From the NCBI GenBank assembly GCA_937922785.1, contig CALAJQ010000012.1, forward strand, positions 1 to 64,000: DNA of 64,000 bases. Direction: 5' to 3'. Within the stretch, counting starts at the first letter, position 1. Each line of letters opens with the position of its first letter. The notes below the pieces were generated by a model. The model did no database searches, had not been told where the DNA came from, and was given only the letters and a program-made list of their open reading frames with translations. This document shows, one piece after another, positions 1 to 16,792 of the stretch. Position numbers and translations under genes: made by a program. The DNA comes from an uncultured Acidimicrobiales bacterium. GTDB taxonomy: Bacteria > Actinomycetota > Acidimicrobiia > Acidimicrobiales > SZUA-35.

Positions 1-123
1 GACATCTTCTCTCGCAGCTACGTCAGTATTGCCGAGGCTGAAGTTGCCTTGGCAGCTGAAAACAGCACTGACGAAGATGACGTAAACGATTGGGATCGGG
101 CTCGATTCCTGGAACACAGCTAG
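1..123 (+). CDS. C-terminal end of an unidentified upstream gene (partial)
   Basis: Frame 1 is open from the first base and gives 40 residues, ending with FLEHS and a TAG stop. The tail is acidic (a run with STDEDDVND). It stops 11 bases before the P450 start, so the two are probably co-transcribed. Too little is present to name a family. Confidence 0.5.
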   Translation, partial: DIFSRSYVSIAEAEVALAAENSTDEDDVNDWDRARFLEHS

Positions 124-134
124 AGGATCAGCAA

Positions 135-1379
135 ATGGCTACAGCGACAACTGCTCCGAACATCACCGACCCCTCGCTTTACCTTGAGGGCATTCCACAC
201 GAGCGATTTGCCGAAATGCGAAACACTCCGGGGATTGTTTGGCACCCGTACAACGACGGTGGCTTTTGGGCTGTTACGCGCCATGCCGACACCAAGACTG
301 TGTCAAAGAACACGGCCACTTTCTCGTCCGCAGTTGGCCACACCAACTTGTGGGACCTTGAGGCTGATGCGTTGGAAGCGCGCCGGTCTCTCATCGACAC
401 TGACTCGCCAGACCACACCCGGTTACGAAGGTTGATCGCTAGAGCGTTTACGCCGAAGAACATCCGCCGCTGGGAAGACACTGTTCGAGAAATCACAGTG
501 GACGTGTTGGAAGAGTTCATGGAGAAAGGCTCCGGCGACTTCGTTGCTGAAGTCGCGGCTCCGATCCCAATCAGAGTCATCCTGACGATGTTGGGGGTCC
601 CGGTCAAGGACGCTGGTTACTTGGTCGAGCTGAGCAACTACCTCGTAGAGGGCACCGGTGAGACACAATCGCTTCCTGCCGATGCCTTTGGTAACACCAC
701 TGAACTTCGGTTGTTGCCATTCAACAGCCCGGCCAGCCACGCCTTGTTTGAATATGGGGAGGCGTTAGGCGAGCAACGGCGCAATGAACCCCAGGATGAC
801 CTTGTAACCACGCTGGTGCAGGCTGAGGCCGAAGACGGAGATCGTCTAAGTGGCTCTGAGTATCGGAACCTGTTCCACCTGCTTATCTTTGCTGGCAACG
901 AAACAACACGAACCGCTCTTAGCCACGGCGCGATGGCTTTGGCCGATCACCCTGACCAATGGGCCCGCGTCTTGGCCGACCCTGAGCTCATCGATTCTGC
1001 AACTGAAGAGGTTCTGCGTTGGTCAACTCCGGTGCTGCACATGCGACGCACCACCACTGAGGAGACCGAGCTTGCTGGCACCAAGATTGGAGCCGGGGAG
1101 AAAGTGGTCATGTGGTACGCGTCGGCCAATCGGGACGAGAGCGAGTTTGAAAACCCCTTCAAGTTCGATGTCGGTCGCGAGCACAACCCTCACTTCTCAT
1201 TCGGTGGTGGGGGCGCTCACCTGTGCCTCGGTGCCTTCCTGGCCAGGCTAGAGATAATCGTCCTGCTGCAAGAAATGGCGAAACGGGGTCTTTCGTTGAA
1301 CCGCACCGGCGAGCCAGTCCGGGCGCCTTCCAACTTCGTCCACGGCGTGCTTTCAGTGGATATGGAAGTAGCCAAATGA
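135..1379 (+). CDS. Cytochrome P450 monooxygenase
   Basis: A soluble bacterial class I P450 of 414 aa, the usual length. Visible landmarks are the I-helix AGNETTR oxygen-activation motif, the K-helix ExxR in EEVLRWS, and the haem loop FGGGGAHLCLG with Cys364 as the thiolate ligand. I start at the ATG at 135 because GAGGA lies 7 bases before it; a TTG further up would only add a stretch with no P450 similarity. The general look recalls the actinobacterial CYP125/CYP142 sterol and CYP124 lipid hydroxylases, but neighbours point to small-molecule catabolism, so the substrate is open. The stop overlaps the next gene, a ferredoxin that is its probable electron donor (ATGA overlap). Confidence 0.95.
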   Translation: MATATTAPNITDPSLYLEGIPHERFAEMRNTPGIVWHPYNDGGFWAVTRHADTKTVSKNTATFSSAVGHTNLWDLEADALEARRSLIDTDSPDHTRLRRLIARAFTPKNIRRWEDTVREITVDVLEEFMEKGSGDFVAEVAAPIPIRVILTMLGVPVKDAGYLVELSNYLVEGTGETQSLPADAFGNTTELRLLPFNSPASHALFEYGEALGEQRRNEPQDDLVTTLVQAEAEDGDRLSGSEYRNLFHLLIFAGNETTRTALSHGAMALADHPDQWARVLADPELIDSATEEVLRWSTPVLHMRRTTTEETELAGTKIGAGEKVVMWYASANRDESEFENPFKFDVGREHNPHFSFGGGGAHLCLGAFLARLEIIVLLQEMAKRGLSLNRTGEPVRAPSNFVHGVLSVDMEVAK

Positions 1380-1588
1380 GCGATTTGGTGAAGCTCAAGG
1401 TCGATACTGAAGCGTGCATCGCTGGTGGACAATGCGAGATGATCGAACCCGACACTTTTCTCGTAGACGATGACACTGCCATAGCGTCGGTGATTGGCAC
1501 AGGGTCCTTGCCTGTCGATCGAGCAGCGGAAGTCATCGACCGTTGCCCTGCCCAGGCGATCTCGATCGTCAACTCTGATTCGGAATGA
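1376..1588 (+). CDS. P450-associated 3Fe-4S ferredoxin
   Basis: A 70-aa small ferredoxin with CIAGGQC near residue 14 and a later CP pair (CPAQAI). This three-cysteine pattern is typical of actinobacterial [3Fe-4S] ferredoxins that pass electrons to P450s. The ATG lies inside the P450 stop region (ATGA), so translation is coupled and the pair probably works together. An alternative long frame starting at 1223 lies inside the P450 gene and is not needed. No ferredoxin reductase gene is seen in this window, so the reductase must come from elsewhere. Confidence 0.93.
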   Translation: MSDLVKLKVDTEACIAGGQCEMIEPDTFLVDDDTAIASVIGTGSLPVDRAAEVIDRCPAQAISIVNSDSE

Positions 1589-1594
1589 AGACAA

Positions 1595-3061
1595 ATGACT
1601 GAGACCTACGACAACTGGATCAACGGAGCGTTCCTAGCTCCACGTGCGGGCAAGCGCATGGTGACTACAAATCCCTACAGCGGCGATGTTTGGGCCGAGG
1701 TAGCCGATGATGCTGACGCTGTTGACCAAGCGGTTCAAGCTGCCCGCAGCGCATTCAACGACGGACCGTGGGCGACCATGAGCGGCCGGGAGAGGGCTCG
1801 GCTGATGCGCAAGCTTGGCGAGCTACTGACCCGAGACGCTGAAGCACTCGCCCAAATAGAAACCCGGGACAACGGCAAGATCATTCGCGAAACAACCGCC
1901 CAAGCTAAGAGCCTTGAAAGCTACCTGGATTATTTCGCAGGAATGGCAGACAAGATTGTTGGCCAACAGATTCCCAGCCCGACACCGAACTTCCTGGTCT
2001 ATACCGAGCGAGTTCCTAAGGGCGTTATCGGTGCCATCATTCCGTGGAACTCTCCGCTTGCCCTGCTTACTTGGAAGCTGGGGCCACTTCTGGCGGCGGG
2101 CTGCACCGCAGTCATCAAACCTTCCGACATCACTCCTGTTACCGCTCTGCTTTTGGCCGAGCGGGCGGCTGAAGCTGGGTTCCCTCCAGGAGTGATCAAC
2201 GTTGTAACGGGCGGCGCCGAGGTCGGTGCTGCCATAAGTTCACACCCCGGTATCGACAAGATCACTTTCACAGGCGGCGGTGCAACTGCCCGTCACGTTG
2301 CCAAAGCCGCTGCGGAGAACCTAACCCCAGCCGTCCTTGAGCTGGGTGGCAAGTCTCCGCAGATCATCTTTTCAGACGCAGACCCTGAGGCTGCCACGAA
2401 CGGCCTGCTTGCCGGCATCTTTGCCGCAAGTGGACAAACTTGTGTGGCCGGCTCGCGGGCCTACATCCATGCCGATATCGCCGAAGACGTCATCAGCCGA
2501 GTGGTAGGTCGAGCCGGCGAGCTAGTTATGGGTGACCCAAGCGACGTGGCCACCGAGATGGGTCCCGCGGCATCAGATGGCCAACGCGATCGAATTCTCG
2601 GAATGATCGATGCCGCCCGAGATGAGGGTGCAACAATCGCTGCCGGGGGAGTGGTTGACCCTGACCTTGGCGGACGATTCGTCCGGCCGACTGTTATCAC
2701 CGGAGTCGACAACCAAAGCTCGATCGTTCGGGAAGAGGTCTTCGGCCCGGTACTAACCGTCATGACCTTCACCGATGAAGACGAAGTGGTGAAGCTGGCG
2801 AACGATTCTGACTACGGCCTTGCTGCTGGCGTTTGGACAAACGACATTCGTCTTGGGCACCGAATGGCCCGCAAGCTTGAGGTGGGCACGGTTTGGATCA
2901 ACACCTACCGCAACGTCAGCTACATGGCTCCCTTTGGTGGGTTCAAGCAATCTGGCTATGGCAAGGACAACGGGCTTGAAGCGCTCGACGGTTTCTTACA
3001 GACCAAGACAGTCTGGGTCGAGCTAGAAGGCGCAACCCGAGACCCCTTCGTAATCGGCTGA
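1595..3061 (+). CDS. NAD(P)-dependent aldehyde dehydrogenase
   Basis: A full-length ALDH-superfamily protein of 488 aa. The general-base glutamate lies in LELGGKSPQ, the catalytic cysteine in SGQTCVAGSR, and the cofactor-binding region includes IIPWNSPLALLTWKLGPLL. It oxidises an aldehyde to an acid. Six bases separate it from the ferredoxin stop, so P450, ferredoxin and ALDH form one operon. A natural reading is that an aldehyde made after hydroxylation, such as a ring-opened hydroxylated amine or a terminal alcohol product, is oxidised here. The gene ends just before a 50-bp perfect palindrome shared with the convergent operon. Confidence 0.95.
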   Translation: MTETYDNWINGAFLAPRAGKRMVTTNPYSGDVWAEVADDADAVDQAVQAARSAFNDGPWATMSGRERARLMRKLGELLTRDAEALAQIETRDNGKIIRETTAQAKSLESYLDYFAGMADKIVGQQIPSPTPNFLVYTERVPKGVIGAIIPWNSPLALLTWKLGPLLAAGCTAVIKPSDITPVTALLLAERAAEAGFPPGVINVVTGGAEVGAAISSHPGIDKITFTGGGATARHVAKAAAENLTPAVLELGGKSPQIIFSDADPEAATNGLLAGIFAASGQTCVAGSRAYIHADIAEDVISRVVGRAGELVMGDPSDVATEMGPAASDGQRDRILGMIDAARDEGATIAAGGVVDPDLGGRFVRPTVITGVDNQSSIVREEVFGPVLTVMTFTDEDEVVKLANDSDYGLAAGVWTNDIRLGHRMARKLEVGTVWINTYRNVSYMAPFGGFKQSGYGKDNGLEALDGFLQTKTVWVELEGATRDPFVIG

Positions 3062-3068
3062 AACACTG

Positions 3069-3118
3069 CTTCTGTCATAGGTTTATCGGGCTATAGCCCG
3101 ATAAACCTATGACAGAAG
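3069..3118. repeat. Long perfect palindrome, copy 1 (bidirectional terminator-like)
   Basis: A 50-bp perfect palindrome with 25-base arms and no spacer, centred on CTATAG. The outer half reads TTCTGTCATAGGTTTATCGG. It sits exactly between the convergent ALDH gene and GS-like gene, 7 bases after one stop and 3 bases from the other. Two further copies lie at 10546-10593 and 13682-13735. As RNA it would form a very stable hairpin from either strand, though no clear U tract follows. Confidence 0.9.
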
Positions 3119-3121
3119 GTT

Positions 3122-4441
3122 CTAGTGGTACATCATGTATTCGTTTAGTTCCCACGCTGTAGGGGGCATTGTGCCGTCGAAGGAACCTTCGGCTTCGACG
3201 TAGCGGTCCCATTCGGCTCGTTTGTTAGCCACAAAGTTGTCGACGACATCTTGTCCAAGTGCCTGTGTGAAGGCCGTGTCGGCCTCGAGGTGATTAAGTG
3301 CCTCGCTTAGACTTCCGGCAGCGCAAACGTCGGTGTTGATTTCTTCGAAACCGTCGCCCGTCTCTGCTGGTGGGCAATCGAGTTGCTTCATGAATCCAAG
3401 TCGGGCTGCGGTAAGAACCGCCGCTGTCATCAGGTGGACGTTTGTGGCCCCGTCGGCGATGCGGCACTCAATTCGGGTGCCAGCGCCACGAGCGGTTGGA
3501 ATTCGAGTGGCGACACAGCGGTGGTCATAACCCCAGTTAGCCCAGTATCCACTTAGCTGTGCTGGCTGAAGTCGGCGATAGGCGTTGACGGTTGGCGCTC
3601 CGATGGCAACAAGAGCTTGGTGGTGTTGGCAAAGGCCGGCGATCGCATTCTTAGCCAATGCTGACAATCCATCATCGGCGTTGCCGTCAGCCAGGGGATT
3701 GTTGCCGTCGCTATCAACGAGTGAGAAGTTCACGTGAACACCGCTGCCACTGATTTCTGCAAACGGTTTACCCAAAAAGGTCAGATCGAGGCCATGAGCC
3801 ATAGCGATTTCGCGCGCCATGACCTTGAACAGGAAGATGTCATCGCATGCCTTAAGGGCCTCGTCATATTCAAGCGTTAGTTCATACTGGGACTCGTCGA
3901 ACTCGGCGTTGATTGACTCGGGCCTGAACCCGCATTCAACCGCGGTCTGCATGATGTCGTCGATAACTCCGTCAGGGTCATTCGTGATCCCAGTTCCGTA
4001 CACCATGGCTCGCGGGTTCTCATATCTGCGCCAATTCTTGTTGTCGTCCAACTCCAGCAGGTAGGCCTCCAGCTCAATCCCGACCTGAGGCTTGTAGCCG
4101 AGCGTTTCCCATTCTGCGATCGCGTTCTGAAGCACCAGTCGAGCAGAGTTGGGGTAGGGCTCTCCCTGAAGTTGAAGGTCAGCTACTGCAACGGCAGTGA
4201 TGTCGTCCTCCCAGCTGGGCATCAGCGTGTTCTCGTCCATGGTTGCGTGAATGTCTATGAGACCTTCAAGTAGGTAAGAACCGGGCGCTGGAATCATGCT
4301 GCGGTCATACCCAAGGCCGTACAACGTAGCGCAGTGACCGGTGCCCTTCGCCGCCAAGTGCTTTGGCAGATACTTGCCTCGCGGAAGTCCTAGGTGATCC
4401 GGAAACATTACGCGGACTCTTTGGATTTGTTCCATATCCAT
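3122..4441 (-). CDS. Glutamine-synthetase-family ligase (GlnA-like, likely catabolic)
   Basis: A 439-aa protein of the glutamine synthetase catalytic fold. Recognisable pieces are GSGVHVNFSL (in place of GSGMHxHxSL), PTVNAYRRL and RIECRIADGATNVHL (the R-x-E-x-R-x-x-D-A-x-N region). It lacks the length and neighbourhood of the housekeeping GlnA and sits last in a catabolic operon, 32 bases after a NicX-like dioxygenase gene. Relatives in catabolic clusters ligate glutamate to amines (gamma-glutamyl-polyamine, -isopropylamide or -anilide synthetases). Mycobacterial cyclic-amine clusters also pair a P450 and ferredoxin with a GS-like gene, as far as I recall. An amine or ammonia-handling role is therefore likely; the actual amine is not predictable. 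Confidence 0.85.
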   Translation of the reverse strand: MDMEQIQRVRVMFPDHLGLPRGKYLPKHLAAKGTGHCATLYGLGYDRSMIPAPGSYLLEGLIDIHATMDENTLMPSWEDDITAVAVADLQLQGEPYPNSARLVLQNAIAEWETLGYKPQVGIELEAYLLELDDNKNWRRYENPRAMVYGTGITNDPDGVIDDIMQTAVECGFRPESINAEFDESQYELTLEYDEALKACDDIFLFKVMAREIAMAHGLDLTFLGKPFAEISGSGVHVNFSLVDSDGNNPLADGNADDGLSALAKNAIAGLCQHHQALVAIGAPTVNAYRRLQPAQLSGYWANWGYDHRCVATRIPTARGAGTRIECRIADGATNVHLMTAAVLTAARLGFMKQLDCPPAETGDGFEEINTDVCAAGSLSEALNHLEADTAFTQALGQDVVDNFVANKRAEWDRYVEAEGSFDGTMPPTAWELNEYMMYH

Positions 4442-4473
4442 GATCAGAGAAAGGTCTTTCTTCTTCGTGTTCG

Positions 4474-5526
4474 TTAGGCCGATAGTTCGTCGACGAGTAT
4501 GCCGTCGATCACCACTGGTGCGTCATCAAGAGTCACAGTGCACGCTCGCATAGGCAAGTCGAAGTGACCTCGACAGAAGCGCTCAGCTACTTCGTTGGCT
4601 CCGGTTGAGTACAAGAAGTTGCCAGCGAATGCTCGTAACTCGGTGCCATTGTGGTCGGCCTTGTCCCACATGGCCATTGCCTCCCAACGAGCCGCTTCGT
4701 TCATACCCCAGCCGACGTGGCTAACTGCATAGGCCTCGGGTTCGTCAAAAGCCGCCAGGTAGGTACGGAAGAGTTCGGCGTCGGTTCCGACTCCATCGAT
4801 GTCTGTGATGTAGTCGTTCTCGATTGTTAGCGTCACTGGATTTTGGAGGTACTGCTTGAACGTCAGGTTCACATCGCCAGGGGCCAAAACAACAGACCCG
4901 CTCACCGACCCCGCTGCAGGAAAGGCCAGCACCAATCCGCCGGGCCAGTGAGCAATCGAGCCAGGTTCTGTGCACCATCCGAATGATCCCGCTCGGAACG
5001 CACCGTCGAGGTTGACGCGTAGGTTGGTTCCCGACGGTGAAGAGACATTCATTACCGAAGCAGCTTCCAGTTTGGCCACGCCCAGATTGACTCGCTCGGC
5101 AAGACCTGGGTCATGGGACCACCGTTCGAAGTTTTCCGGGTGTTCGTTGGAGATCATTAGCACCCGAGCGCCGCTATTCAAGATCGTTCCAAGCTCGGGG
5201 GCGTGGAGCAGACCTTCCACGGTGCAGTCGGCCACGAAGTCAGCGTTAGTTAGTGCTCCAAGGGCCGCCTTGTTGGCTGCGATGGCCTGGGATGCCCCAG
5301 TGGAACGGATCGGCACTGGTCCAGGGTTTGGTGGTGTTGGTAGGACTACCTCAATAACTGAGGCCCCGAGGCTGCCAAGCGCAAGTCGGGCGGTTTCCAC
5401 CAAGCTTGGGCGGCTGCGCGATTCGGACAGGACAACGGCTACGTCTCCGGCTGCGACGGCACATGCCTGGAACTGTTGAGCGAACCTGGCAATCCATTGC
5501 CACTCGGTTCTGAAATCCGGACTCAC
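4474..5526 (-). CDS. NicX-like 2,5-dihydroxypyridine 5,6-dioxygenase family protein
   Basis: A 350-aa protein of the family that contains NicX, the Fe(II) ring-opening dioxygenase of nicotinate breakdown, and is distantly related to M29 (aminopeptidase T) peptidases. The C-terminal half matches what I remember of NicX closely: SHVGWG, ELRAFAGNFLYSTG and GHFDLPMR. The three NicX metal ligands (His265, His318, Asp320 in Pseudomonas putida) correspond to His270, His321 and Asp323 here. Its length equals that of NicX. The start overlaps the stop of the upstream flavoprotein gene by 4 bases. I infer extradiol-type cleavage of a dihydroxy-pyridine-like ring; automatic annotation might call it 'leucyl aminopeptidase'. 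Confidence 0.82.
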   Translation of the reverse strand: MSPDFRTEWQWIARFAQQFQACAVAAGDVAVVLSESRSRPSLVETARLALGSLGASVIEVVLPTPPNPGPVPIRSTGASQAIAANKAALGALTNADFVADCTVEGLLHAPELGTILNSGARVLMISNEHPENFERWSHDPGLAERVNLGVAKLEAASVMNVSSPSGTNLRVNLDGAFRAGSFGWCTEPGSIAHWPGGLVLAFPAAGSVSGSVVLAPGDVNLTFKQYLQNPVTLTIENDYITDIDGVGTDAELFRTYLAAFDEPEAYAVSHVGWGMNEAARWEAMAMWDKADHNGTELRAFAGNFLYSTGANEVAERFCRGHFDLPMRACTVTLDDAPVVIDGILVDELSA

Positions 5527-6734
5527 GCTGGAGACTCAGTACTGTCTGGATACAAGCCTGCTTGGCCGAGTCGTTGAAGACACACTTCAACGCTCCACGG
5601 CAACATGGTTGCCCCGCAGCGGGCGTCTCTGTAGAACTGCTCTAGCCGTGATGGCCTCAAGAGAGAGCGTCCCCCACAGACTCGGAGCGCAGTGGAAGCG
5701 AGTTCAGCGGCTCCTTCCATTGTTGTCACCATCGACGCCCAGGCTCGCCTTATTGCGGCCGGGCTTGGGTCGACTCCGGCTTCACCGAGTACCTGGTAAC
5801 ACAAGGCCCGCGCTCGCTCATAAGTGAGATTCATTTCCGCCCAACCCTGTTGCTTTATTGGGTGGTCTCGCCGAGCCGATGGGCCTCCGTCGCCAATTAG
5901 GTACCTAGAGGTTTCTTCCATGACGCCACCCATTAGGCCAAGGTAGGCAAACGACAGGGTCATGTAGAAGTACGGCCAGCGCTCAGCCGCCTGATCGAAC
6001 AGGCCGGGAGGTATCCACTCGTTCGAGGAGGGAACAAACACGTCTTCCATAACGAGGTTTCGAGAGTCGGTGGCTCTCATACCTAGTGGATCCCACTCGC
6101 CTTCAATGCGAACTCCTTCGCCGTCGGCCGGAATCCCGAGCAGTCGAAGTCGGTCATCTCCGTCAACCATGCAGACCACGTTGTGAACACCGGCAGCGCC
6201 ACTGAGCGAAGCGAAGATCTTCCTGCCACTTACTCGGTATCCGCCTTCGACAGGAATTGCTTTAGTTGAGTAGCCGCTGGTAGCTCCGGCGGAAACGCCT
6301 TCGGAGAACGGCTGGCTATGGATTACGTGATTTTCGATGATGCCTTTGCGGAGCAAAGAACGATTGGCGTGCAGCATCTCGAGGTCGCTCTCGGATAGAT
6401 CCATGTCGTCAGCGATCTCACCCGTTAAGAGGGTGGTCGCTACATGCATATTGAAAGTGAGAGCCGTCGCAGTGCAATGGCGGCCCAACTCCTCAGCAAC
6501 CAACGCGTAGCCAACGAAGTCTCCACCAAGGCCGCCATCTTCAACAGGTATACAAATGCCAAGTAGTCCGGCAGCGGCGAAGTCTGCCCAGTTGTCATAG
6601 GGAAAGCTTGCGTCGGAGTCGTGTTTGGCGGAACGACTAGCCACTGTGGGTCCGAGGTCTCGCATGAGCTGTACCAGCGCAGCCCGTGCCGGGGTAAGGA
6701 TGTTGGGCTGGTTTGGCTCATTGTGTTCAGTCAT
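5523..6734 (-). CDS. Acyl-CoA-dehydrogenase-fold flavoprotein
   Basis: A 403-aa ACAD-superfamily protein. The N-terminal helical domain has AAGLLGICIPVEDGGLGG and VAEELGRHCTATALT; the C-terminal helical domain has RVCGGRSLLRPSRLEQFYRDARC. The usual 'YEGT' catalytic-base segment is replaced by GATMLPWSVEV, so it may be either a dehydrogenase or one of the flavin monooxygenases of this fold (HsaA/DszC type) that hydroxylate aromatic rings with a separate reductase. In this operon a hydroxylase preparing a ring for the two dioxygenases would make sense, but this is inference. The start overlaps the upstream hydrolase by 8 bases and the stop overlaps the next gene by 4. Confidence 0.85.
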   Translation of the reverse strand: MTEHNEPNQPNILTPARAALVQLMRDLGPTVASRSAKHDSDASFPYDNWADFAAAGLLGICIPVEDGGLGGDFVGYALVAEELGRHCTATALTFNMHVATTLLTGEIADDMDLSESDLEMLHANRSLLRKGIIENHVIHSQPFSEGVSAGATSGYSTKAIPVEGGYRVSGRKIFASLSGAAGVHNVVCMVDGDDRLRLLGIPADGEGVRIEGEWDPLGMRATDSRNLVMEDVFVPSSNEWIPPGLFDQAAERWPYFYMTLSFAYLGLMGGVMEETSRYLIGDGGPSARRDHPIKQQGWAEMNLTYERARALCYQVLGEAGVDPSPAAIRRAWASMVTTMEGAAELASTALRVCGGRSLLRPSRLEQFYRDARCGATMLPWSVEVCLQRLGQAGLYPDSTESPA

Positions 6735-7524
6735 GATTTGAACCTTCCAAAAACGATCTGACTAGTCGGTTAAAGCTAGCCGGGTCTTCTGAGGGCGAAA
6801 GATGCCCAACGCCATTAAGCACCACGAACTGTGAATTGGCCAAACCATCGGAAAGTAGCTGGGCGTAGGAGACTGGAGTCTCTTCATCCAACTCACCAAC
6901 GATGACCAACGATTCGTGCGTGATCGAATTTAGGTCGTCTCGAACGTCGTTATGGGGCAAACACTCAACAGCGGCTCTTAAACCGTCTGGCGGTATCCGT
7001 CCGAAGGACTCAATCAGGCTGGCCCTGAGTCCTGGCTCCAGTGCTCTCCCAACGATGGCGTCAAGAACTCCAGGCGCCATGTCTGCCGGCGTAACCCCGG
7101 AGTTAAGCGGCTCCAGGCGGGCTGCTTTCCAGTCTTGGGGTTTGGTGCCGTTCATGCCGAAGGCCGGGCTTGTGTTGGCCAAAATCATTCGTCGCACGCG
7201 GTCGGGGAAGTGGATGGCTGTGTGCAGGGCGTGCATGCCGCCGAACGAAAGCCCCACCAAGTCCGCGCGCTCGATTCGAAGTTCGTCTAGAAGCCCAACG
7301 AGCCGTTCAGCGATGGAGCGATAGGTCAGTTCAGGTTCAGGATCTGCAGCTCCATAGCCCGGCATGTCCCAAGCGATGCACCGCCTAGTATCGGACAAGT
7401 CATCCAACTGCGGACCCCATGAAGCTCGAGTGCCGCCTAGGCCGTGAAGGAAGATCAGTGGTTCGCCAGTACCCGCCTCCCGCCATGCGTGGGGACCGCG
7501 TTTGTGATCAGTCCAGCTAGTCAT
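6727..7524 (-). CDS. Alpha/beta hydrolase (ring-fission-product or deformylase type)
   Basis: A 265-aa alpha/beta-hydrolase with oxyanion motif HGLGG, nucleophile elbow GLSFGG (Ser93), acid Asp213 in ELDEET and base His241 in GVGHLSP. The frame is open further upstream, but that part would overlap the dioxygenase gene by 86 bases, so I start at the ATG at 7524, 7 bases after that gene's stop. Two roles fit the neighbours: a MhpC-like C-C hydrolase following the extradiol enzyme, or a NicD-like N-formylmaleamate deformylase following the NicX-like enzyme (NicD is the same fold and size). Confidence 0.88.
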   Translation of the reverse strand: MTSWTDHKRGPHAWREAGTGEPLIFLHGLGGTRASWGPQLDDLSDTRRCIAWDMPGYGAADPEPELTYRSIAERLVGLLDELRIERADLVGLSFGGMHALHTAIHFPDRVRRMILANTSPAFGMNGTKPQDWKAARLEPLNSGVTPADMAPGVLDAIVGRALEPGLRASLIESFGRIPPDGLRAAVECLPHNDVRDDLNSITHESLVIVGELDEETPVSYAQLLSDGLANSQFVVLNGVGHLSPSEDPASFNRLVRSFLEGSNHD

Positions 7525-7531
7525 TTGAAAA

Positions 7532-8392
7532 CTAGACGTCGAACCAGATGTGGGTCTGCCCCGTGCCAGCGACCGCTTCGTATTCTCCGAACTGGGTTCC
7601 CTGGAGCTTGCAATCACGGCCGCCGAGTGCGCCCACCATTGTTAGATAGTGGCCGAACTTGCCCTCGGGTCCGTGTTGTCGGAACTCCGGGTAGAAGTCG
7701 ATGATCGCGCCGTGATTGCCATCTTTCATCATCTGTATGACGTAGCGATCAGCGGCAGCGGCTTCGGGTGTTCGGATGTGTAGATCTGGGTCTGCGGCTT
7801 CGTGATCTCGGAACTCGCGCAGCGGCCAGAAACGATGGCTTAGGCCCCCGCTGGCAAGAACAACGACCCGTCGGTCAACCTTTGCTATCGCTTCGGCCAA
7901 CAACTCGCCGAACAGCAAAAAGTCCTGAGCGTCAGCGGTTTGGCAGATGCTGGCACTCACCCAATTCTCATCGCCTTGAAGAAACGGGAGCAGATTGAGG
8001 GTGGGGTAGTGGACGGGCAAGTAAGGGTCATCAATGTCGGTGATCCACGTGTCCTCTCGGTCGGTCGACGTACCCGCCCAAGCCTCGGCCAGTTCGCGAT
8101 CGCCTTTCATGTTGTAGACCATTTGTTTCATACCGCGAGGTAACTCTTCGGATGTGTAAATGCCCTCTCGGTGGTCATGGCTAGCAACGATGTGTTCGAT
8201 CGTTGTGTACCAATGGGTGTCGATGACGATCACAGTGTCAGCTTCAATTGGACCCAACTTGTCGGCCCGAAGCTGATGTAGGCCAGCGAACAAAGTGGTG
8301 TCGTCACCGTTGTTCATTTCGCGACGGTCCTCTTCGGGCAACACCAAAGTGGGCACGTGAGAAACCAGGGCTGCTCCAACTATTTTGCCCAT
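7532..8392 (-). CDS. Class III extradiol dioxygenase, HpcB/HpaD-like (LigB superfamily)
   Basis: A 286-aa protein resembling the class III homoprotocatechuate (3,4-dihydroxyphenylacetate) 2,3-dioxygenase of Escherichia coli over its whole length as I recall it: MGK start, SHVPTLVLPE, IDTHWYTT, GIYTSEELPRGMKQMVYN, VVVLASGGLSHRFWPL and GTGQTHIWF at the end. SHVP, DTHW and GLSHR carry histidines expected for Fe(II) binding and catalysis. It would open a catechol-type ring next to a hydroxyl pair. The FAH hydrolase and aldehyde dehydrogenase at 11287-13660 resemble the downstream HpcE and HpcC steps, which supports a meta-cleavage route. One base separates it from the upstream P450. Confidence 0.9.
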   Translation of the reverse strand: MGKIVGAALVSHVPTLVLPEEDRREMNNGDDTTLFAGLHQLRADKLGPIEADTVIVIDTHWYTTIEHIVASHDHREGIYTSEELPRGMKQMVYNMKGDRELAEAWAGTSTDREDTWITDIDDPYLPVHYPTLNLLPFLQGDENWVSASICQTADAQDFLLFGELLAEAIAKVDRRVVVLASGGLSHRFWPLREFRDHEAADPDLHIRTPEAAAADRYVIQMMKDGNHGAIIDFYPEFRQHGPEGKFGHYLTMVGALGGRDCKLQGTQFGEYEAVAGTGQTHIWFDV

Positions 8393-8393
8393 G

Positions 8394-9656
8394 TCAGACG
8401 ACCCTTACCGGTAGATGTTTGATTCCAGAGATGAAGTTTGAGCGTAGGTTCTCCTCTGGGCCAGCTTGTTCGAATCGGTCTACTCGTTTCAGGAGTTCTT
8501 CGAATACAAGCCTCACCTCCATGCGGGCCAACCACGCGCCCAAACACAGGTGGGGTCCGTTGCGGCCAAAGGTCATATGGTCATTTGATTGACGAGCGAG
8601 GTCATATCGGAACGGTGCGTCGAAACGTTCTTTGTCGTGATTGGCTGAGTTGAACCAGATCACCATCTTGTCGCCAGCCTTAATCTGTTTGCCCCGCATT
8701 TCGATGTCTGCGGTGGCCGTGCGACGGAAGTGCATGGTTACAGAGCTGGTTCGGAGCACTTCTTCAACTGCTGTTGTCGTTAGCTCGGGGTCGGCCTTCC
8801 ATGCGTCCCACAGCTGAGGGTGGCGCATCATGGCCCAAAGTCCATGGGTCATGGTGTAGCGGGTCGTGTCGTTTCCTGCCGCAACGATGAGAGTGAAGAA
8901 GTTGTTGAACTCAAGATCGGTTAACGGTTGGCCATCGGTGGTGGGTTCGAGCAGTTGGGAGATGACGTCATCGGTTGGGTTCGCGCGACGTTTGGCTGCC
9001 TGTTCCTGAGCGTATTGGAAGATCTGTATTGATGCCGGACTGCGGAATGGGACCATCCGAAACTCATCGGTGTCAGTTAGATCAACCGGGTAGTCGGTGA
9101 ACTCGGGGTCGGTATTGCCCAGAAGGGCGTCACCCCAGGAAACCAACTTGTGGCCATCTTGGTCGCTTGTGCCCAGCATTCGTCCAAGCATGCGCATCGG
9201 GAGTTGCTCGGCGATTTCGGCCACAAAGTCGAACTCCTTCTTTTGAAGAGCTTCCTCGATGACTTCGATCGCTAGCTCCCGAATTGATTCCTCATATGAC
9301 TCAACTCTGCGCCGGGTGAAGCCTTTGCTCACAAGTCTTCGGTAGCGGGTGTGGTCGGGTGGGTCGAGTTCCATCATTGTGCGACGGGCTTCGGTCTCCT
9401 CTTCGTCCATCTCTTCTAGGCGAATGCCTTTGGAGGAGGTGAAGGTCTTTACGTCTTTGCTAACCGCAATGGCGTCGTCGTAGCGCAGTATTGACCAGAA
9501 TCCAGAACCATCGGACTCTTCTGTCCAATGAACCGGATCTTCTTCACGCAGCTTTGCAAAAGTAGCGTGAGGCACTCCGTTGACGTAGGTGTCGTGACTA
9601 GTTATGTCGGCATCATCAGGGCCAAGATCGTCGAGGTAGTTGTCAACGTAGGTCAT
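8394..9656 (-). CDS. Cytochrome P450 monooxygenase (second)
   Basis: A 420-aa soluble P450. The I helix has VAAGNDTTR, the K helix EEVLR, and the haem loop FGRNGPHLCLG with Cys371. It resembles the first P450 of this window at architectural level (both have PPDHTR/SPDHTR and VPFRSPASIQ/LPFNSPASHA segments), so they are probably paralogues of one subfamily used for different steps. Its start and the stop of the upstream gene share a base (TAATG), so they are translationally coupled. No ferredoxin lies in this operon; the ferredoxin at 1376 may serve both. Confidence 0.95.
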   Translation of the reverse strand: MTYVDNYLDDLGPDDADITSHDTYVNGVPHATFAKLREEDPVHWTEESDGSGFWSILRYDDAIAVSKDVKTFTSSKGIRLEEMDEEETEARRTMMELDPPDHTRYRRLVSKGFTRRRVESYEESIRELAIEVIEEALQKKEFDFVAEIAEQLPMRMLGRMLGTSDQDGHKLVSWGDALLGNTDPEFTDYPVDLTDTDEFRMVPFRSPASIQIFQYAQEQAAKRRANPTDDVISQLLEPTTDGQPLTDLEFNNFFTLIVAAGNDTTRYTMTHGLWAMMRHPQLWDAWKADPELTTTAVEEVLRTSSVTMHFRRTATADIEMRGKQIKAGDKMVIWFNSANHDKERFDAPFRYDLARQSNDHMTFGRNGPHLCLGAWLARMEVRLVFEELLKRVDRFEQAGPEENLRSNFISGIKHLPVRVV

Positions 9657-10477
9657 TAGCCAGCCTCATTTGCCATTGGGTTCGGCCCGGCCCAAACGGT
9701 GGTTCCGCCAGCCATCGAGTTACCAACTTGGCGGTAGTAGGCGCCGATGATTTCGATCTCGCCGAAGCGGGTGAGCTCTTCAGTGGGGGAGTCATGGAGC
9801 TGGAGCTGGGCGTCACCACTAAAGACCGGTCCCAGCTCTACATCGAAGCCGCCCATCGTCACCAACTCATTCAGTGAGTCTCGGCCGTCCATTTCTATGG
9901 CGGGAGTTTGGCGTGTGTGAAGCATCGGATGCCCGTTTACGAACCCGGCGCTATCGGCGCTGCCCGTGATTGTGAACTGCGCGTCGGCGATGCGGCGGCC
10001 AAACGTGCTGAGTGTGCAGCCGAACTTGCCGCCAACTTCGAGTCGAGGGCCCGCCTTGCCAATTGTTACTGGCCGGGTCATCCAGATCTCAGACATCTTT
10101 TTCGGATAGCCCTGCACGTGACCTCGGGCCATTGCAAAGTCTTTGTCGACCCAGATGTAGGCGGCCCGGCTGTAAGTGGTGTCTTGGTATTTGCATCGAA
10201 TAACTACAAACACCTCTTTGTATTGAGCGCGGGCCGGATCCAGAAGTTCTTCGAAGGAGTCGCTGCAGCTTTGCCAATCAGCCCAGATGATCGCCACTGC
10301 ACCAGGGTCATCATCAGCTAGTTCAAGCCCTGCAGGCAGCAGTTCAGCCACGTTGGCTGTGTCGGTTCGAAACTCGATTGTGAGCATTTCTCCGCTGTAG
10401 TGCCACGGCGGTGGGGGCAAGATTGAGCCCGCTCCGGTTGGCGTTCGGGGATACATGAGACCCTTAAGTTCTGCCAT
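9656..10477 (-). CDS. Acetoacetate-decarboxylase-domain protein
   Basis: A 273-aa protein of the acetoacetate decarboxylase (ADC) superfamily: GAGSILPPPPWHYSGE at the N terminus, the central ARGHVQGYPKKMSEIW with the lysine pair expected around the Schiff-base site, and KFGCTLSTFG. ADC-like enzymes decarboxylate or perform aldol/dehydration chemistry on short oxo acids. It is the first gene of the minus-strand catabolic operon. I start at the ATG at 10477 and not at the earlier in-frame start, which would include the operator in the coding region. A TATGCT box 6 bases upstream suggests a leaderless mRNA. Confidence 0.85.
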   Translation of the reverse strand: MAELKGLMYPRTPTGAGSILPPPPWHYSGEMLTIEFRTDTANVAELLPAGLELADDDPGAVAIIWADWQSCSDSFEELLDPARAQYKEVFVVIRCKYQDTTYSRAAYIWVDKDFAMARGHVQGYPKKMSEIWMTRPVTIGKAGPRLEVGGKFGCTLSTFGRRIADAQFTITGSADSAGFVNGHPMLHTRQTPAIEMDGRDSLNELVTMGGFDVELGPVFSGDAQLQLHDSPTEELTRFGEIEIIGAYYRQVGNSMAGGTTVWAGPNPMANEAG

Positions 10478-10483
10478 GGCGAC

Positions 10484-10489
10484 AGCATA
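10484..10489 (-). promoter_or_regulatory. -10 box of the seven-gene catabolic operon
   Basis: On the minus strand TATGCT is followed by 6 bases and the ATG at 10477. This is the spacing of a leaderless actinobacterial transcript. The box abuts the 22-bp operator palindrome, so a bound repressor would cover the promoter. Confidence 0.55.
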
Positions 10490-10510
10490 ATCGTTTGGTA
10501 CCAAACGATT
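10489..10510. promoter_or_regulatory. MarR-type operator 1 (22-bp palindrome)
   Basis: A perfect 22-bp palindrome with core TCGTTTGGTACCAAACGA (10491-10508). It lies directly upstream of the catabolic operon start and next to its -10 box. A near copy (16 of 18 bases in the core) lies at 11207-11224 upstream of the divergent pair. The MarR regulator gene lies between the two sites, so it is the obvious binding protein. Confidence 0.8.
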
Positions 10511-10545
10511 CAAGCGCGAGGCCTCCTGAACGCCCAAAAACATGC

Positions 10546-10593
10546 TTCTGTCAGAGGTTTATCGGCCTATAGACCGATAAACCTCTGACAGAA
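10546..10593. repeat. Long palindrome, copy 2 (terminator-like)
   Basis: A 48-bp palindrome with one mismatched pair (10566/10573), the same sequence family as 3069-3118 and 13682-13735. It lies 15 bases downstream of the MarR stop codon and upstream of the operator of the next minus-strand operon. It would stop MarR transcripts before the decarboxylase-led operon. Confidence 0.88.
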
Positions 10594-10608
10594 ACGAATT
10601 TCGACAGA

Positions 10609-11064
10609 CTAAGAGGAGGCGTTGTTGATAACGATTCTTAGCAGTCGGGCGAGTTCTTGCTTTTCTTCGCTGCTGAGTCCCGCTGACACTTGGCCTTCAT
10701 AGTCATTGAACTTGGGGAACAGTTCTTCGATGGTCTCTTCACCATCGCCGGTCAGACGCACCAAGACCCGGCGTTTGTCTGTTGGTACAACGTTTCTTGA
10801 TACCAGATCTCGCTTCTCAAGAGTTGTGAGCATCCCGGTGAGCGTTCCCTTTGCCAGATCGCATTCTTCGGCCAGCCGGGCGGTTTCCATTTCACCAAAG
10901 ACCCACAGCACCCACAAGATCGTGAAGCCGCCCCAGGAAAGCTTGTAGCCAGCCAAAACGTCGCGTTCCGCTCGGCGCCGAACCCCTGAAGCTGCCCGAT
11001 AAATGTTCGAGACTGCGTTGAGGGCGTCGAAGTCAAGAACGTGGTCACCCAGGCGGGCTTGCAC
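10609..11064 (-). CDS. MarR-family transcriptional regulator of the catabolic island
   Basis: A 151-aa winged-helix protein of usual MarR length. The recognition region reads ARLAEECDLAKGTLTGMLTTLEKRDLVSR, followed by the wing PTDKRRVLVRLT. The only usable in-frame start near the expected place is GTG at 11064; the frame stays open to 11163 without ATG, GTG or TTG. MarR proteins usually repress and release DNA when a phenolic or related ligand binds, and HpaR of homoprotocatechuate clusters is also MarR-type. Two matching operators flank the gene, so it probably controls both catabolic operons and, through operator 2, itself. Confidence 0.9.
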   Translation of the reverse strand: MQARLGDHVLDFDALNAVSNIYRAASGVRRRAERDVLAGYKLSWGGFTILWVLWVFGEMETARLAEECDLAKGTLTGMLTTLEKRDLVSRNVVPTDKRRVLVRLTGDGEETIEELFPKFNDYEGQVSAGLSSEEKQELARLLRIVINNASS

Positions 11065-11183
11065 AAGCCGTTCGGCGGCAAGGCGTTCGCTGGCCTCGTT
11101 CTCAGACGGCGGTTGCTGTGTGGCTGACGGTTCTTTGGCTGACAGGGCGGATTGTGCCTTTCACTTGTTGAGCTAACTCTAGT

Positions 11184-11208
11184 GAATTCATCAGATCATT
11201 ATGAATTC
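11184..11208. promoter_or_regulatory. Second inverted repeat in the MarR/FAH divergent region
   Basis: GAATTCAT and ATGAATTC form a perfect 8-base inverted repeat with a 9-base spacer. It overlaps operator 2 by two bases. It could bind a second regulator or another dimer of the MarR protein; there is no further copy at operator 1. Confidence 0.4.
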
Positions 11209-11224
11209 GTTCGGTACCAAACTA
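11207..11224. promoter_or_regulatory. MarR-type operator 2
   Basis: TCGTTCGGTACCAAACTA differs from the core of operator 1 at two of 18 positions. A TATTCT -10-like box for the plus-strand FAH operon starts at 11223, on the edge of the operator. The site lies in the divergent region between MarR and FAH, so it can serve both autoregulation and control of the FAH-ALDH pair. Confidence 0.75.
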
Positions 11225-11286
11225 TTCTAGTTCTAGACCCGATTATCGGCCAGCTAGAGGCCCAATAGAAGGATTAGTGCCATCCC

Positions 11287-12192
11287 ATGTCTGAGACCCG
11301 AAGAATTCTGTTAGACGGCTACCCGACCGAGGTTCGCCGTGATGGCGATGTTCTTGTTGCCGGCGATGGCCGCCACGTCAAGATCGATGAAGCAGTCCAC
11401 CTTGCTCCGGTTGAACCCACCAAGATCATCTGTATCCACCTGAATTACCAGAGCCGGGTAACTGAGTTCATGGGTAAGTTGCCGCCTGCGCCAACCTATT
11501 TTCACAAGCCAATTACGGCTCTGACCGGCCATGGTTCTGACGTGGTTCGACCCGAAGGGTGCAAGTGGCTGAACTTTGAAGGCGAGATTGCCATCGTGAT
11601 CGGTAAGACTTGCCGCAACATTTCAGCTGATGAAGCTGGTGATTACATCGCTGGCTACAGCGTGGGTAACGACTACGGGCTACACGACTTCCGTGACACC
11701 GATGCTGGTTCGATGCTGCGAGTTAAGGGCAGCGACACCTTGTGTCCGATTGGGCCAGGCCTGGTGACCGACTGGGATTTCCGGGGCAAACAAATCAAGA
11801 CAATCGTTAACGGTGAAGTGATGCAGGATGCCACCACTGACGAGATGGAGTGGGACATGCATTACATCGTTGCTGACCTCGCCCGAACCATCACTTTGGT
11901 GCCTGGTGACATCATCTTGTCGGGTACACCGGCAAATTCACGAACGGTTTACCCCGGAGATGTTGTAACGGTGGAAGTTGAAGGTCTGGGAGCTCTGACG
12001 AACACCATCGTTACTGGCCCAACTCCGATTCGAGCCGACGTTGGGGCACAGCCAAGTGAGTCCGAAGAAGTGCTTTCAACTGCCCAAGGCGGAGACTGGG
12101 AGTTCCGCGGCATTCGCAAACCAATGGGCGCTGGAGCCAAGTTGTACGCCACAACTGTTGGCGAAGGCGAAGCAGATTCTAAGAACGGCTGA
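11287..12192 (+). CDS. Fumarylacetoacetate-hydrolase-family protein (HpcE-like)
   Basis: A 301-aa FAH-fold enzyme. Metal ligands are visible as E98 and E100 in NFEGEIAIVIGK and D129 in GNDYGLHDFR; the C-terminal half has GSDTLCPIGPGLV and LSGTPANS. Members hydrolyse, decarboxylate or isomerise oxo-dienoates from meta-cleavage, such as the HpcE decarboxylase/isomerase. About 45 residues at the C terminus (after GPTPIRADVG) extend beyond the usual domain and are not recognised. GAAGGA precedes the ATG. It is the first gene of the operon that follows operator 2. Confidence 0.88.
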   Translation: MSETRRILLDGYPTEVRRDGDVLVAGDGRHVKIDEAVHLAPVEPTKIICIHLNYQSRVTEFMGKLPPAPTYFHKPITALTGHGSDVVRPEGCKWLNFEGEIAIVIGKTCRNISADEAGDYIAGYSVGNDYGLHDFRDTDAGSMLRVKGSDTLCPIGPGLVTDWDFRGKQIKTIVNGEVMQDATTDEMEWDMHYIVADLARTITLVPGDIILSGTPANSRTVYPGDVVTVEVEGLGALTNTIVTGPTPIRADVGAQPSESEEVLSTAQGGDWEFRGIRKPMGAGAKLYATTVGEGEADSKNG

Positions 12193-12202
12193 GGTGTCTG
12201 CG

Positions 12203-13660
12203 ATGCGAGTTTCTGAAGTCGGGGGAGTGTCTGTCCCTGTTGATCACCTGATTGGTGGCAAGTGGGTTGGTTCGGCCGAAACCTTCGAGTCGAGATCACC
12301 GCTTGATTGGGACGCTGAGCCGCTTGCTTTGGTAGCTCGTGGAGACCAGGCAACCGCCGATGCAGCTGTTTTGGCTGCTCAGGAGGGTTTTTCGGTCTGG
12401 TCCGCATGGACCGCGGCGCAACGATCTGAGGTCATGCATAAGCTTGCAGACCTGATCGAGGAGCACAACGAAGACATTGCCATTGTTGAGTCGTTGGACA
12501 TGGGGTTCATGTATGAGTCCATGAAGGAACGTCTGGTGGCGCGTGGCGCAACCAACTTCCGTCTCTATGCCGACCTGATAGTCGCCCACGAAGAACGGCG
12601 GTGGGACGCAAAGAACATGCACAACGTGGTGCAGTACATGCCTGCTGGGCCCGCCGTTGTGATCACTCCTTGGAACGCCCCGTTCATGTTGAGTACTTGG
12701 AAGTTGGCGCCAGCACTGGCCGCTGGCAACTCAGTGATCCACAAACCGGCTGAGTGGTCGCCGTTGACTGCGGCCTTGCTGGCCGAGCTGACCTTGGAGG
12801 CCGGGTTCCCGCCAGGGGCATACAACTTGGTGCAGGGAATTGGCGAAGAAGTTGGAGCGGCACTGGTTGCTAATCCTGGCGTGCGCCGGATTACCTTCAC
12901 TGGCTCGCCCGCAACCGCTCGTCACATCGGCAAGGCGGCCGCGGAGAATATTGTTCCCTTCACTGCTGAATTGGGCGGCAAAGGACCGCTAATTGTTTTC
13001 GCTGACTCCGATCTAGAGAAGGCGGCCCATCGGGCAGCCTGGCAGTTCGACGATTCGGGGCAGGTGTGTTTGGCCGGAACGCGTTTGCTGGTGGAAGAGT
13101 CGGTGAAGGATGAGTTCATGGAGATCTTCAACCGTCACGCCGACGCGCTTGTACTTGGTGATTCTCGAGAAGACTCGACCGACCTTGGGCCGCTGGTTCA
13201 CCCTGATCATCGGGCCAATGTGCACGGCTTTGTTGAGCGCGCGGCCGCCGCTGGTGACAAGATCATCCGTGGTGGACATCCCGTTGAAGGCAGCCTTCAC
13301 TACGAGCCGACACTGATCGAGCCCGCCTCGAACGATTCCGAAGTTGTGCAGAGTGAGATATTCGGGCCGGTTCTGACCATTCAAACTTTCGCCGACGAGG
13401 CTGAGGCCATCGCATTGGCCAACAGCACAGAGTACGGACTGTCAGCCATGATTTGGACCGGTTCCAAAGACCGAGCTGAACGAGTCGGTCGGGCCCTGCG
13501 AACCGGTCTTGTTTGGGTTAACACCTTCTTGGTGCGAGACCTGACTGCTCCCTTTGGTGGCGTAGGGATTAGTGGCATAGGCCGCGAAGGTGGCGAGCAC
13601 GCCCTCGAGTTCCACAGCGACCTAAAGACGTTGATGGTGTTAGACGACTCAGTGACCTGA
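12203..13660 (+). CDS. Aldehyde dehydrogenase (semialdehyde dehydrogenase, HpcC-like)
   Basis: A 485-aa ALDH with Glu in TAELGGKGP and catalytic Cys in SGQVCLAGTR. The frame is open back to 12041 inside the FAH gene, but that part is shadow; I use the ATG at 12203, with GCTGAGG upstream and 10 bases after the FAH stop. Coupled to FAH and under the same operator as an HpcB-like ring-cleavage enzyme, it is likely to oxidise the muconic-semialdehyde ring-fission product (the HpcC step). It is distinct from the ALDH at 1595. Confidence 0.92.
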   Translation: MRVSEVGGVSVPVDHLIGGKWVGSAETFESRSPLDWDAEPLALVARGDQATADAAVLAAQEGFSVWSAWTAAQRSEVMHKLADLIEEHNEDIAIVESLDMGFMYESMKERLVARGATNFRLYADLIVAHEERRWDAKNMHNVVQYMPAGPAVVITPWNAPFMLSTWKLAPALAAGNSVIHKPAEWSPLTAALLAELTLEAGFPPGAYNLVQGIGEEVGAALVANPGVRRITFTGSPATARHIGKAAAENIVPFTAELGGKGPLIVFADSDLEKAAHRAAWQFDDSGQVCLAGTRLLVEESVKDEFMEIFNRHADALVLGDSREDSTDLGPLVHPDHRANVHGFVERAAAAGDKIIRGGHPVEGSLHYEPTLIEPASNDSEVVQSEIFGPVLTIQTFADEAEAIALANSTEYGLSAMIWTGSKDRAERVGRALRTGLVWVNTFLVRDLTAPFGGVGISGIGREGGEHALEFHSDLKTLMVLDDSVT

Positions 13661-16079: not shown

Positions 16080-16129
16080 ATTCCCAGAACGTGTGCATCC
16101 GTACCACCTCAGAAGGCGTAGGTGGGAGT

Positions 16130-16792
16130 ATGTCACAGTGGGGAAAACAGTCAGAAGGCCGGCGGGAGAAGGTCTTGGGTTATCCAGCGCGCTTGGTGGC
16201 GGGAATTGCGTTCATAGCGATAGTCGCTGCAGCCTGCGGATCGGGCGACTCCGAATCAGGAACAGCAGCTGTTGACCCCACTGTGGCAACTGAATCCTCC
16301 TCAACTGAGGCGGAGGAGACAACGACCACCGGCGATGTAACAACCAGTACTGAAGAGTCGACCACTACCTCTGAGGAGTCGACGACTACCTCTGAGGAGT
16401 CGACCACTACCGAAGAGCCTTCGACAACTGCTGCACCTACTACAGCGGCTCCGACGACCGCTGCTCCGACTACGGCAGCACCAACAACTGCTGCCCCAAC
16501 AACTGCTGCTCCGACCACCGCAGCACCAACAACTGCTGCCCCAACAACTGCTGCACCGACTACGGCGGCCCCCATAAGCGGTTCTGCATTGTTTGCAAAC
16601 AACTGTTCTCGTTGCCATGGCGCCGACGGTTCCGGAGTAACTGCACCGTCGCTTCAAGGGTCGGGGGCGAAATTTACCTTCGGACAGATGGTTGGTCTCG
16701 TCAACAACGGAAGCGGCGGAATGCCATCGTTTAGTGGAAAGCTAAGTGCGGCCGAGATTGACGCCGTGGTGACCCACGCTCGCACGCTGTAG
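16130..16792 (+). CDS. Lipid-anchored monohaem cytochrome c with Thr/Ala/Pro-repeat stalk
   Basis: A 220-aa exported electron carrier. A hydrophobic signal ends in a lipobox-like VAAAC (Cys36). Residues about 40-100 are Glu/Ser/Thr-rich (repeats of EESTTTS), then ten TTAAP pentapeptides form a stalk, then a cytochrome c domain begins at ISGSALF. CSRCH (Cys159, Cys162, His163) binds haem; the Met in GGMPSFSGK (about 198) is the axial ligand. The start ATG at 16130 has GGTGGGAG upstream. It probably carries electrons at the outer face of the membrane. The partner oxidase is not in this window. The ten repeats use mixed synonymous codons. Confidence 0.9.
   Translation: MSQWGKQSEGRREKVLGYPARLVAGIAFIAIVAAACGSGDSESGTAAVDPTVATESSSTEAEETTTTGDVTTSTEESTTTSEESTTTSEESTTTEEPSTTAAPTTAAPTTAAPTTAAPTTAAPTTAAPTTAAPTTAAPTTAAPTTAAPISGSALFANNCSRCHGADGSGVTAPSLQGSGAKFTFGQMVGLVNNGSGGMPSFSGKLSAAEIDAVVTHARTL

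Follow-up and report, generated by a model that had tools for sequence, protein, structure and literature searches.

A candidate MarR-type regulon that joins HpcB-like and NicX-like ring-opening enzymes in an uncultured Acidimicrobiales bacterium

The genome of an uncultured Acidimicrobiales bacterium (GCA_937922785.1) carries a catabolic island that combines a NicX-like and an HpcB-like ring-opening dioxygenase at the start of contig CALAJQ010000012.1 (C12); the window analysed here is the first 64,000 nucleotides of this contig, with the island at 135–13,660. This observation, made in a preliminary description from the sequence alone, is right and goes beyond chance, and the sequence comparisons below support the view that both ring-cleavage enzymes belong to one co-regulated catabolic unit. 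We propose, with a probability of about one half, that this island lies at the heart of a MarR-type regulon with which gamma-glutamylated aromatic amines are degraded, with an HpcB arm leading towards γ-aminobutyric acid (GABA) and an accessory arm built around the NicX-clade enzyme. More tentative is the wider claim of an undescribed route that would protect aromatic biogenic amines as gamma-glutamyl amides, open them with a homoprotocatechuate-type dioxygenase and drain them to GABA, with MarR-type coupling to a NicX-clade enzyme that acts on a new ring. As had been supposed, no described pathway with both a NicX-like and an HpcB-like enzyme was found in the open-licence literature, to which all literature searches here refer. 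The result is a testable regulon, with an operator of 22 bp and about 15 to 20 genes (partly assigned by inference), in mostly uncultured actinobacteria, which predicts the use of aromatic amines yielding nitrogen and carbon and, if true, would provide the first function for the NicX clade as far as this literature goes.

Gene layout and a shared operator

The named genes of the island are open reading frames at the positions given below and, except for the NicX-like protein, fall into the named families by Pfam and NCBIfam. The minus-strand operon had been described with seven genes; their identity and places hold, and with the MarR gene in first position the count becomes eight, in the order MarR, ADC-like, P450a, HpcB-like, alpha/beta hydrolase (ABH), ACAD-fold flavoprotein, NicX-like and GS-like. 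FAH and ALDH2 run in the opposite direction and face the MarR end. Once the starts are corrected, neighbouring genes from ADC to NicX are separated by −8 to +7 bp, the gap between NicX and GS is 32 bp, and that between MarR and ADC is 131 bp with an operator inside.

The full operator site is the palindrome AATCGTTYGGTACCRAACGATT. It is present as AATCGTTTGGTACCAAACGATT at 10489–10510 (no strand) 5' of the ADC operon, and a second operator at 11203–11228 (no strand) lies between MarR and FAH. In the window the core GTTNGGTACCNAAC occurs only at 10493 and 11209 (none in 100 shuffles), and in the whole 4.91-Mb genome at three places (reversed control none), the third being C29:21551, upstream of a GABA-transaminase-like gene. 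All 17 exact core matches in the window and in the loci L066 to L160 (L numbers denote loci and G numbers genomes) are located at pathway gene starts. The site in front of ADC is most likely non-coding, as 9 of the 24 rows listed have a stop codon inside the site or immediately after it; since the operator fills the supposed N-terminal extension, the same stop codons suggest that the ADC/MppR-like gene (9656–10477, minus strand) most likely starts at 10477 and not at 10543. The MarR-family regulator (10609–11064, minus strand), whose best NCBIfam model is HpaR (55 of 121 bits), is the presumed reader of the operator. Another inverted repeat, GAATTCAT, was rejected as operator, as it is not among the repeats listed for the other sequences compared.

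A weight matrix trained on the 17 exact sites was run over 96 sequences with a threshold of 14, counting the training sites apart, and gave 78 hits at or above this score, with none after reversal of the sequences and 0 to 2 after shuffling (five runs). The threshold had been set to 14 after a first null (60-base block shuffling, threshold 12) returned 3 hits, one of them scoring 29; the first 14-mer with at most two mismatches had given 37 hits against 7.3 in shuffles. Of the 61 non-training hits 57 fall between −70 and +160 relative to the start of a pathway gene; the pathway genes were picked from the same neighbourhoods, and the size of such zones, 8.1% of the bases, serves as the control. 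Sites found by the matrix precede ADC, FAH, GS, PuuD, the ABC transporter, ABH (7), P450a, HpcB, ALDH2 and ACAD-NicX (2 new, 6 training); ABH and PuuD share an operator region in relatives, and a further site of this genome, scoring 27.6, separates PuuD from the ABC transporter (L185). Because the operator precedes ACAD-NicX, HpcB and other pathway genes in relatives, both ring-openers are placed in one regulon, and the objection that the genes might not be co-regulated fails on this common operator. A stricter survey with a slightly longer pattern covered 32 genome handles, which correspond to 31 other genomes (G273 equals G322), and the 30 loci listed, which cover a part of the matching places, reduce to 22 places, of which 18 are at pathway genes and the other 4 elsewhere.

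The NicX-clade protein and its companions

The NicX-clade protein (4474–5526, minus strand), a putative Fe(II) ring-cleavage dioxygenase, matches no Pfam and no NCBIfam model and was recognised through the solved NicX structure 7cn3 (phmmer, 3.5e-53). Its AlphaFold2 model has a mean predicted local distance difference test (pLDDT) of 92 and a template modelling (TM) score of 0.91 to 7cn3. An M29 aminopeptidase, the reading that had been named as a possible refutation, can be rejected, with TM scores of 0.54 to 0.57 and root mean square deviations of 7.9 to 8.8 against M29 peptidases and with iron ligands of the NicX type. The metal ligands His270, His321 and Asp323 named before are confirmed and Ser307 is added as the fourth; the four (NicX His265, His318, Asp320 and Ser302) are invariant in 28/28 clade rows, in line with the serine described as fourth iron ligand of NicX in PMC7910607. 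Also invariant in all 28 rows are R298, E312 and H108 (NicX Arg293, Glu308 and His105), and H193 (NicX His189) is kept in 27/28.

The clade departs from NicX at one position. In NicX, according to PMC7910607, Glu177 and His189 together hold the substrate oxygen. The Glu177 equivalent, located by counting along the alignment of the window protein to 7cn3, is S181 here, and in the 28 clade rows it is S in 24, V in 2 and G in 2, never E. Glu177 is kept, as read by eye, in the annotated NicX of Pseudomonas sp. BYT-5 and Azospirillum ramasamyi, both adjoined by NicC-, NicD-, NicE- and NicF-type genes. The hydrolase of the island (ABH, 6727–7524, minus strand, start most likely at 7524) has meta-cleavage-product hydrolases as nearest solved relatives; a NicD deformylase was considered and rejected, as the similarity to hydrolases of the NicD type from annotated NicX clusters is 25% identity over 109 aa. 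Because Glu177 is lost and the hydrolase is not NicD, we file the protein as a NicX relative and not as a 2,5-dihydroxypyridine dioxygenase, and the substrate of the clade is probably a different one. Clade members labelled ‘peptidase M29’ in plasmid records are likewise NicX-type dioxygenases, probably for a ring other than 2,5-dihydroxypyridine. Two Rhizobiales plasmids encode the hydrolase as a fusion with a Polyketide_cyc2 domain at its N-terminus (L171:12375-13667 and L172:12377-13666).

The island shares with NicX from the nicotinate pathway of Pseudomonas putida the fold, the iron ligands and the conserved residues given above, and differs from that system in lacking Glu177 and any NicC-, NicD-, NicE- or NicF-like gene and in placing the protein with an ACAD-fold monooxygenase, a different hydrolase and a GS. 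It is quite unlikely that two ordinary pathways, a nicotinate-type 2,5-dihydroxypyridine route using NicX and a homoprotocatechuate route using HpcB, simply lie side by side: the NicX fold with all iron ligands would suit this, as would two proteins encoded elsewhere in the genome, 45% and 33% identical to the isochorismatase-type and the Asp/Glu-racemase-type protein of the BYT-5 NicX cluster (which we take to be NicF-like and NicE-like, respectively), but Glu177 is missing from all 28 rows and kept in the two annotated NicX with NicD-, NicE- and NicF-type neighbours, the hydrolase is not NicD, and the genes of both arms are intermixed in operons under one operator.

The ACAD-fold flavoprotein (5523–6734, minus strand) is assigned to the monooxygenase kind, its closest solved relatives by sequence being 5z8t (‘Flavin-containing monooxygenase’) and 5gj7 (‘putative Acyl-CoA dehydrogenase’); no paper naming 5GJ7 or 5Z8T was found. 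The catalytic Glu of acyl-CoA dehydrogenases, which we take to sit in a YEGT-type motif and used to locate the equivalent position, is replaced by RDARCGATMLPW, with Leu378 present in at least 90% of 24 rows and Pro379 and Trp380 in 24/24, and with the catalytic Glu missing the acyl-CoA dehydrogenase reading was rejected. Flavin reductase genes adjoin the relatives L132, L135, L171 and L172. In fold comparisons with the flavoprotein model, acyl-CoA dehydrogenases and monooxygenases differ by no more than Z 1 to 2, so that the fold alone is not decisive. The iif/ipo indole pathway, with the ACAD-type monooxygenase IifC and a flavin reductase, is similar in its ACAD-fold two-component monooxygenase and in the anthranilate-type neighbours seen in some relatives, and differs in that no NicX-like protein is named in the available parts of PMC9871250 (‘dihydroxypyridine’ 0 times) or PMC12538310 (‘NicX’ 0 times).

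The HpcB arm and the amine-type genes

The HpcB-like enzyme (7532–8392, minus strand) had been called a full-length class III extradiol dioxygenase. Its LigB-type family is borne out, and its residues H12, H60, H186 and E243, presumably the metal ligands and the base, are kept in 43/43 rows, while its best NCBIfam model, HpaD_Fe (TIGR02298), reaches 137 bits against a cut-off of 316. The adjoining FAH and ALDH genes, earlier described as HpcE/HpcC-like, keep this assignment at the same level: FAH (11287–12192, plus strand) finds the generic FAH model first (225 of 444 bits) and HpaG-C second (192 of 276), and for ALDH2 (12203–13660, plus strand) HpaE is best (503 of 638 bits). By sequence, HpcB, ALDH2, MarR and FAH resemble the homoprotocatechuate pathway and none reaches its cut-off. 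Compared with the hpa/hpc meta-cleavage pathway the island is similar in having HpaD_Fe-, HpaE-, HpaG- and HpaR-like members together and differs by the scores of these members, all below the curated cut-offs, by an ADC/MppR-like enzyme and a P450, and by the absence of isomerase, hydratase and aldolase from its own genes, the rest of the genome not having been searched for these three. The place of HpcB can be taken by a type I (VOC) homoprotocatechuate-dioxygenase-like protein, which in L120 (4397-5326) stands beside FAH, ADC, ALDH2, a permease and ACAD-NicX and by cluster membership has a mate in L127 (4415-5350); no HpcB was found in a genome-wide search of the genomes of L120 and L127.

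In the proposed regulon for gamma-glutamylated aromatic amines, whose amine substrates we infer from the gene content, the GS-like ligase (3122–4441, minus strand), the last gene of the operon, with an operator of its own in relatives, and a candidate gamma-glutamyl-amine synthetase, would gamma-glutamylate the amine. P450a (8394–9656, minus strand) would then hydroxylate the ring, the HpcB-like enzyme would open it, and ALDH2, FAH and perhaps the ADC-like enzyme would pass the product along a homoprotocatechuate-like route. By the carbon count of gamma-glutamyl-dopamine, a tyramine- or dopamine-like substrate would yield pyruvate and gamma-glutamyl-aminobutyraldehyde, the latter to be converted by ALDH1, PuuD and GabT to GABA and succinate. 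As gamma-glutamyl-aminobutyraldehyde is an intermediate of the Puu pathway, its formation would explain the presence of ALDH1, PuuD and GabT. The NicX-clade enzyme, the ACAD-fold monooxygenase and the hydrolase may form the second, accessory ring-opening arm, with GS and the regulator common to both arms. The likeness to the Puu pathway (PuuA, PuuC, PuuD, GabT) consists of GS-, ALDH-, C26-peptidase- and GABA-transaminase-like genes, with the operator in front of GS, PuuD and GabT here or in relatives; it differs in that there is no PuuB-type oxidase among the genes of the island (such a gene was not sought elsewhere) and in that aromatic ring-opening genes are found instead. PuuD-like genes recur at 14 loci and GATase-like genes at 8, both are present in this genome, and the PuuD-like member of L076 reaches the Pfam Peptidase_C26 threshold. 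For the GabT-like gene TIGR00700 gives 470 bits, below the cut-off of 507, yet each of its six top models is a GABA transaminase.

Several points weigh against this proposal. GS is no closer to known amine ligases than to glutamine synthetases, the PuuD-like proteins score 78 to 90 bits where NF008471 asks for 266, the closest solved structures to P450a are CYP125/CYP124-like steroid or lipid hydroxylases, and a pathway step for the ADC-like enzyme is a guess. HpaF, HpaH and HpaI are not among the genes of the island, in a comparison that included no search aimed at them. In the survey with the longer pattern 20 of the 32 handles gave matches, 12 gave none, and two handles each gave one control hit; an operator before GabT was detected in this genome only, with no GabT in the 30 loci listed. 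The HpcB of G223, from the window's own family, groups with rows that lack NicX, and as the genomes are related the counts given in the next section are not independent.

The left flank, with the plus-strand genes P450b (135–1379) and ALDH1 (1595–3061; top models BADH/aminobutyraldehyde dehydrogenase-like, below cut-off, and a candidate oxidiser of a gamma-glutamyl aminoaldehyde), is truncated by the assembly, as the window begins at base 1 of C12 in an incomplete genome of 45 contigs. Contig C41 (1-8770, L185) opens within a second GS-like gene; ACAD5, a Liv-type ABC transporter and PuuD lie before it. In L074, L076 and L079 the same GS, together with an ABC transporter, is followed by P450b, and by this synteny the reversed C41 probably adjoins the left end of the window (1-1379). 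These genes would suit parallel arms for two amines under one regulator, with GS, P450a and HpcB for one and the second GS, P450b, ALDH1 and NicX for the other, a division we regard as quite unlikely, as in the window and many relatives NicX and the first GS belong to one operon and the adjacency of C41 and C12 is itself deduced.

Relatives and a possible two-step opening

The gene set, which the preliminary description had suggested seeking elsewhere, occurs in many related genomes. A scan of named genomes gave 357 relatives, of which the best 80 were studied as loci. By tblastn (1e-10) within the DNA of these 80 loci ACAD was found at 75, ABH at 56, GS at 36, P450a at 28, ADC at 24, HpcB and ALDH2 at 16 each, FAH at 13 and MarR at 7, in counts that pool paralogues and include many short loci. 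The gene orders mix the arms: the window has HpcB-ABH-ACAD-NicX-GS, L074, L076 to L080 and L083 have ADC-P450a-HpcB facing ACAD-NicX and ABH-GS facing PuuD, and L098, L099, L106 and others have ALDH2-ACAD-NicX. A genome-wide search, which took 50 of the 80 loci and left out 30, detected HpcB in 39/50 NicX-clade genomes against 30/296 genomes of the class. In this class sample the close NicX clade (at least 59% identity) is present in 6/296 genomes, and HpcB in 6/6 with it against 24/290 without (Fisher p 6.7e-7, relatedness ignored). On a tree of 41 HpcB rows (18 with and 23 without the close NicX clade, after removal of the duplicates L092 and L096) this label needs 3 changes compared with a mean of 13.6 to 13.7 in 500 shuffles, and 15 of the 18 NicX-bearing rows form one group with a support of 93, with L040 and L041 (the window's own family) and L098 placed elsewhere.

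Each arm also occurs without the other. There are 24 class genomes with HpcB and no close NicX clade, and five loci read in them (L150, L153 and L155 to L157) carry an amino-acid permease together with P450a, GS, PuuD, MarR, FAH, ALDH2 and ADC. The reverse is seen on plasmids of Ensifer adhaerens and Aminobacter aminovorans, where NicX-ACAD-ABH-TetR-GS is joined by genes for a flavin reductase and an APC permease, and in the annotated Ensifer operon no second ring-opener was found among NicX-ACAD-ABH-GS, flavin reductase and permease. As the Ensifer GS-family gene is just 25% identical to the GS of the window, GS seems to have been recruited more than once. In Aminobacter (L172) a second ring-opener is possible, as a two-cupin protein, an FAH and a carbon-nitrogen hydrolase lie upstream of the NicX module.

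Since each arm is found alone, arms working in parallel or as alternatives fit better than a two-step opening, in which the ACAD-fold monooxygenase and the NicX-clade enzyme would open the N-ring of a fused or linked N-heterocycle, the hydrolase would free an aryl amine and P450a and HpcB would open the benzene ring; an indole-type compound, for example, would give an N-formyl aryl amine after cleavage of its N-ring. We consider this sequence of steps rather unlikely. NicX does cleave next to the ring nitrogen to give an N-formyl product, as described in PMC7910607, the flavoprotein model ranks indole-bound TdsC third, level with acyl-CoA dehydrogenases, and outside the HpcB group the NicX module adjoins carbocycle- or anthranilate-type genes (L093, L089, L113, L115, L135, L132 and L172). 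L093:12813-13394 is a 3-hydroxyanthranilate 3,4-dioxygenase that exceeds its equivalog cut-off and is oriented convergently to a NicX-ABH-ACAD set and a LysR gene, with a counterpart in L089 by cluster membership; L113 has a salicylyl-CoA-5-hydroxylase-type monooxygenase in one operon with the NicX module and L115 another by cluster membership; kynA is present in L135 and a kynB-like Cyclase gene in L132. On the other side stand the Ensifer operon, the 24 class genomes, a hydrolase that is not NicD, and PuuD and GabT in the regulon, which better suit a simple aryl-ethylamine. For kynurenate and p-aminobenzoate as substrates no supporting paper was found. From the two options offered earlier the two-step opening of a fused ring is therefore not favoured, and a new substrate for one family is, given the lost Glu177, a hydrolase other than NicD, a flavoprotein outside the NicC family, and HpaD/E/R-like proteins together with gamma-glutamyl-amine-type genes.

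Some further genes were noted in this genome and its relatives. A divergent tryptophan 2,3-dioxygenase-like gene, accompanied by an HSL-type hydrolase, is present at L084:14083-15898, L086:6057-7872 and, in this genome, C16:66155-67078, with a second and more distant match at C16:208386. A group II pyridoxal phosphate (PLP) decarboxylase adjoins HpcB at L098:16336-17718, and its relative in this genome (C23:165621-166928) has one stop codon within the matched stretch. The matrix scan detected no operator-like site in the corresponding stretches of this genome (L168, L169 and L170), so that both kinds of genes are left out of the regulon here; in L098 and L099, by contrast, a MarR gene preceded by an operator-like site stands in front of the decarboxylase. 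Beyond the island, at window 16091-16792, a lipoprotein-like reading frame combines a long APTTA repeat with a CSRCH motif of the kind seen in cytochromes c.

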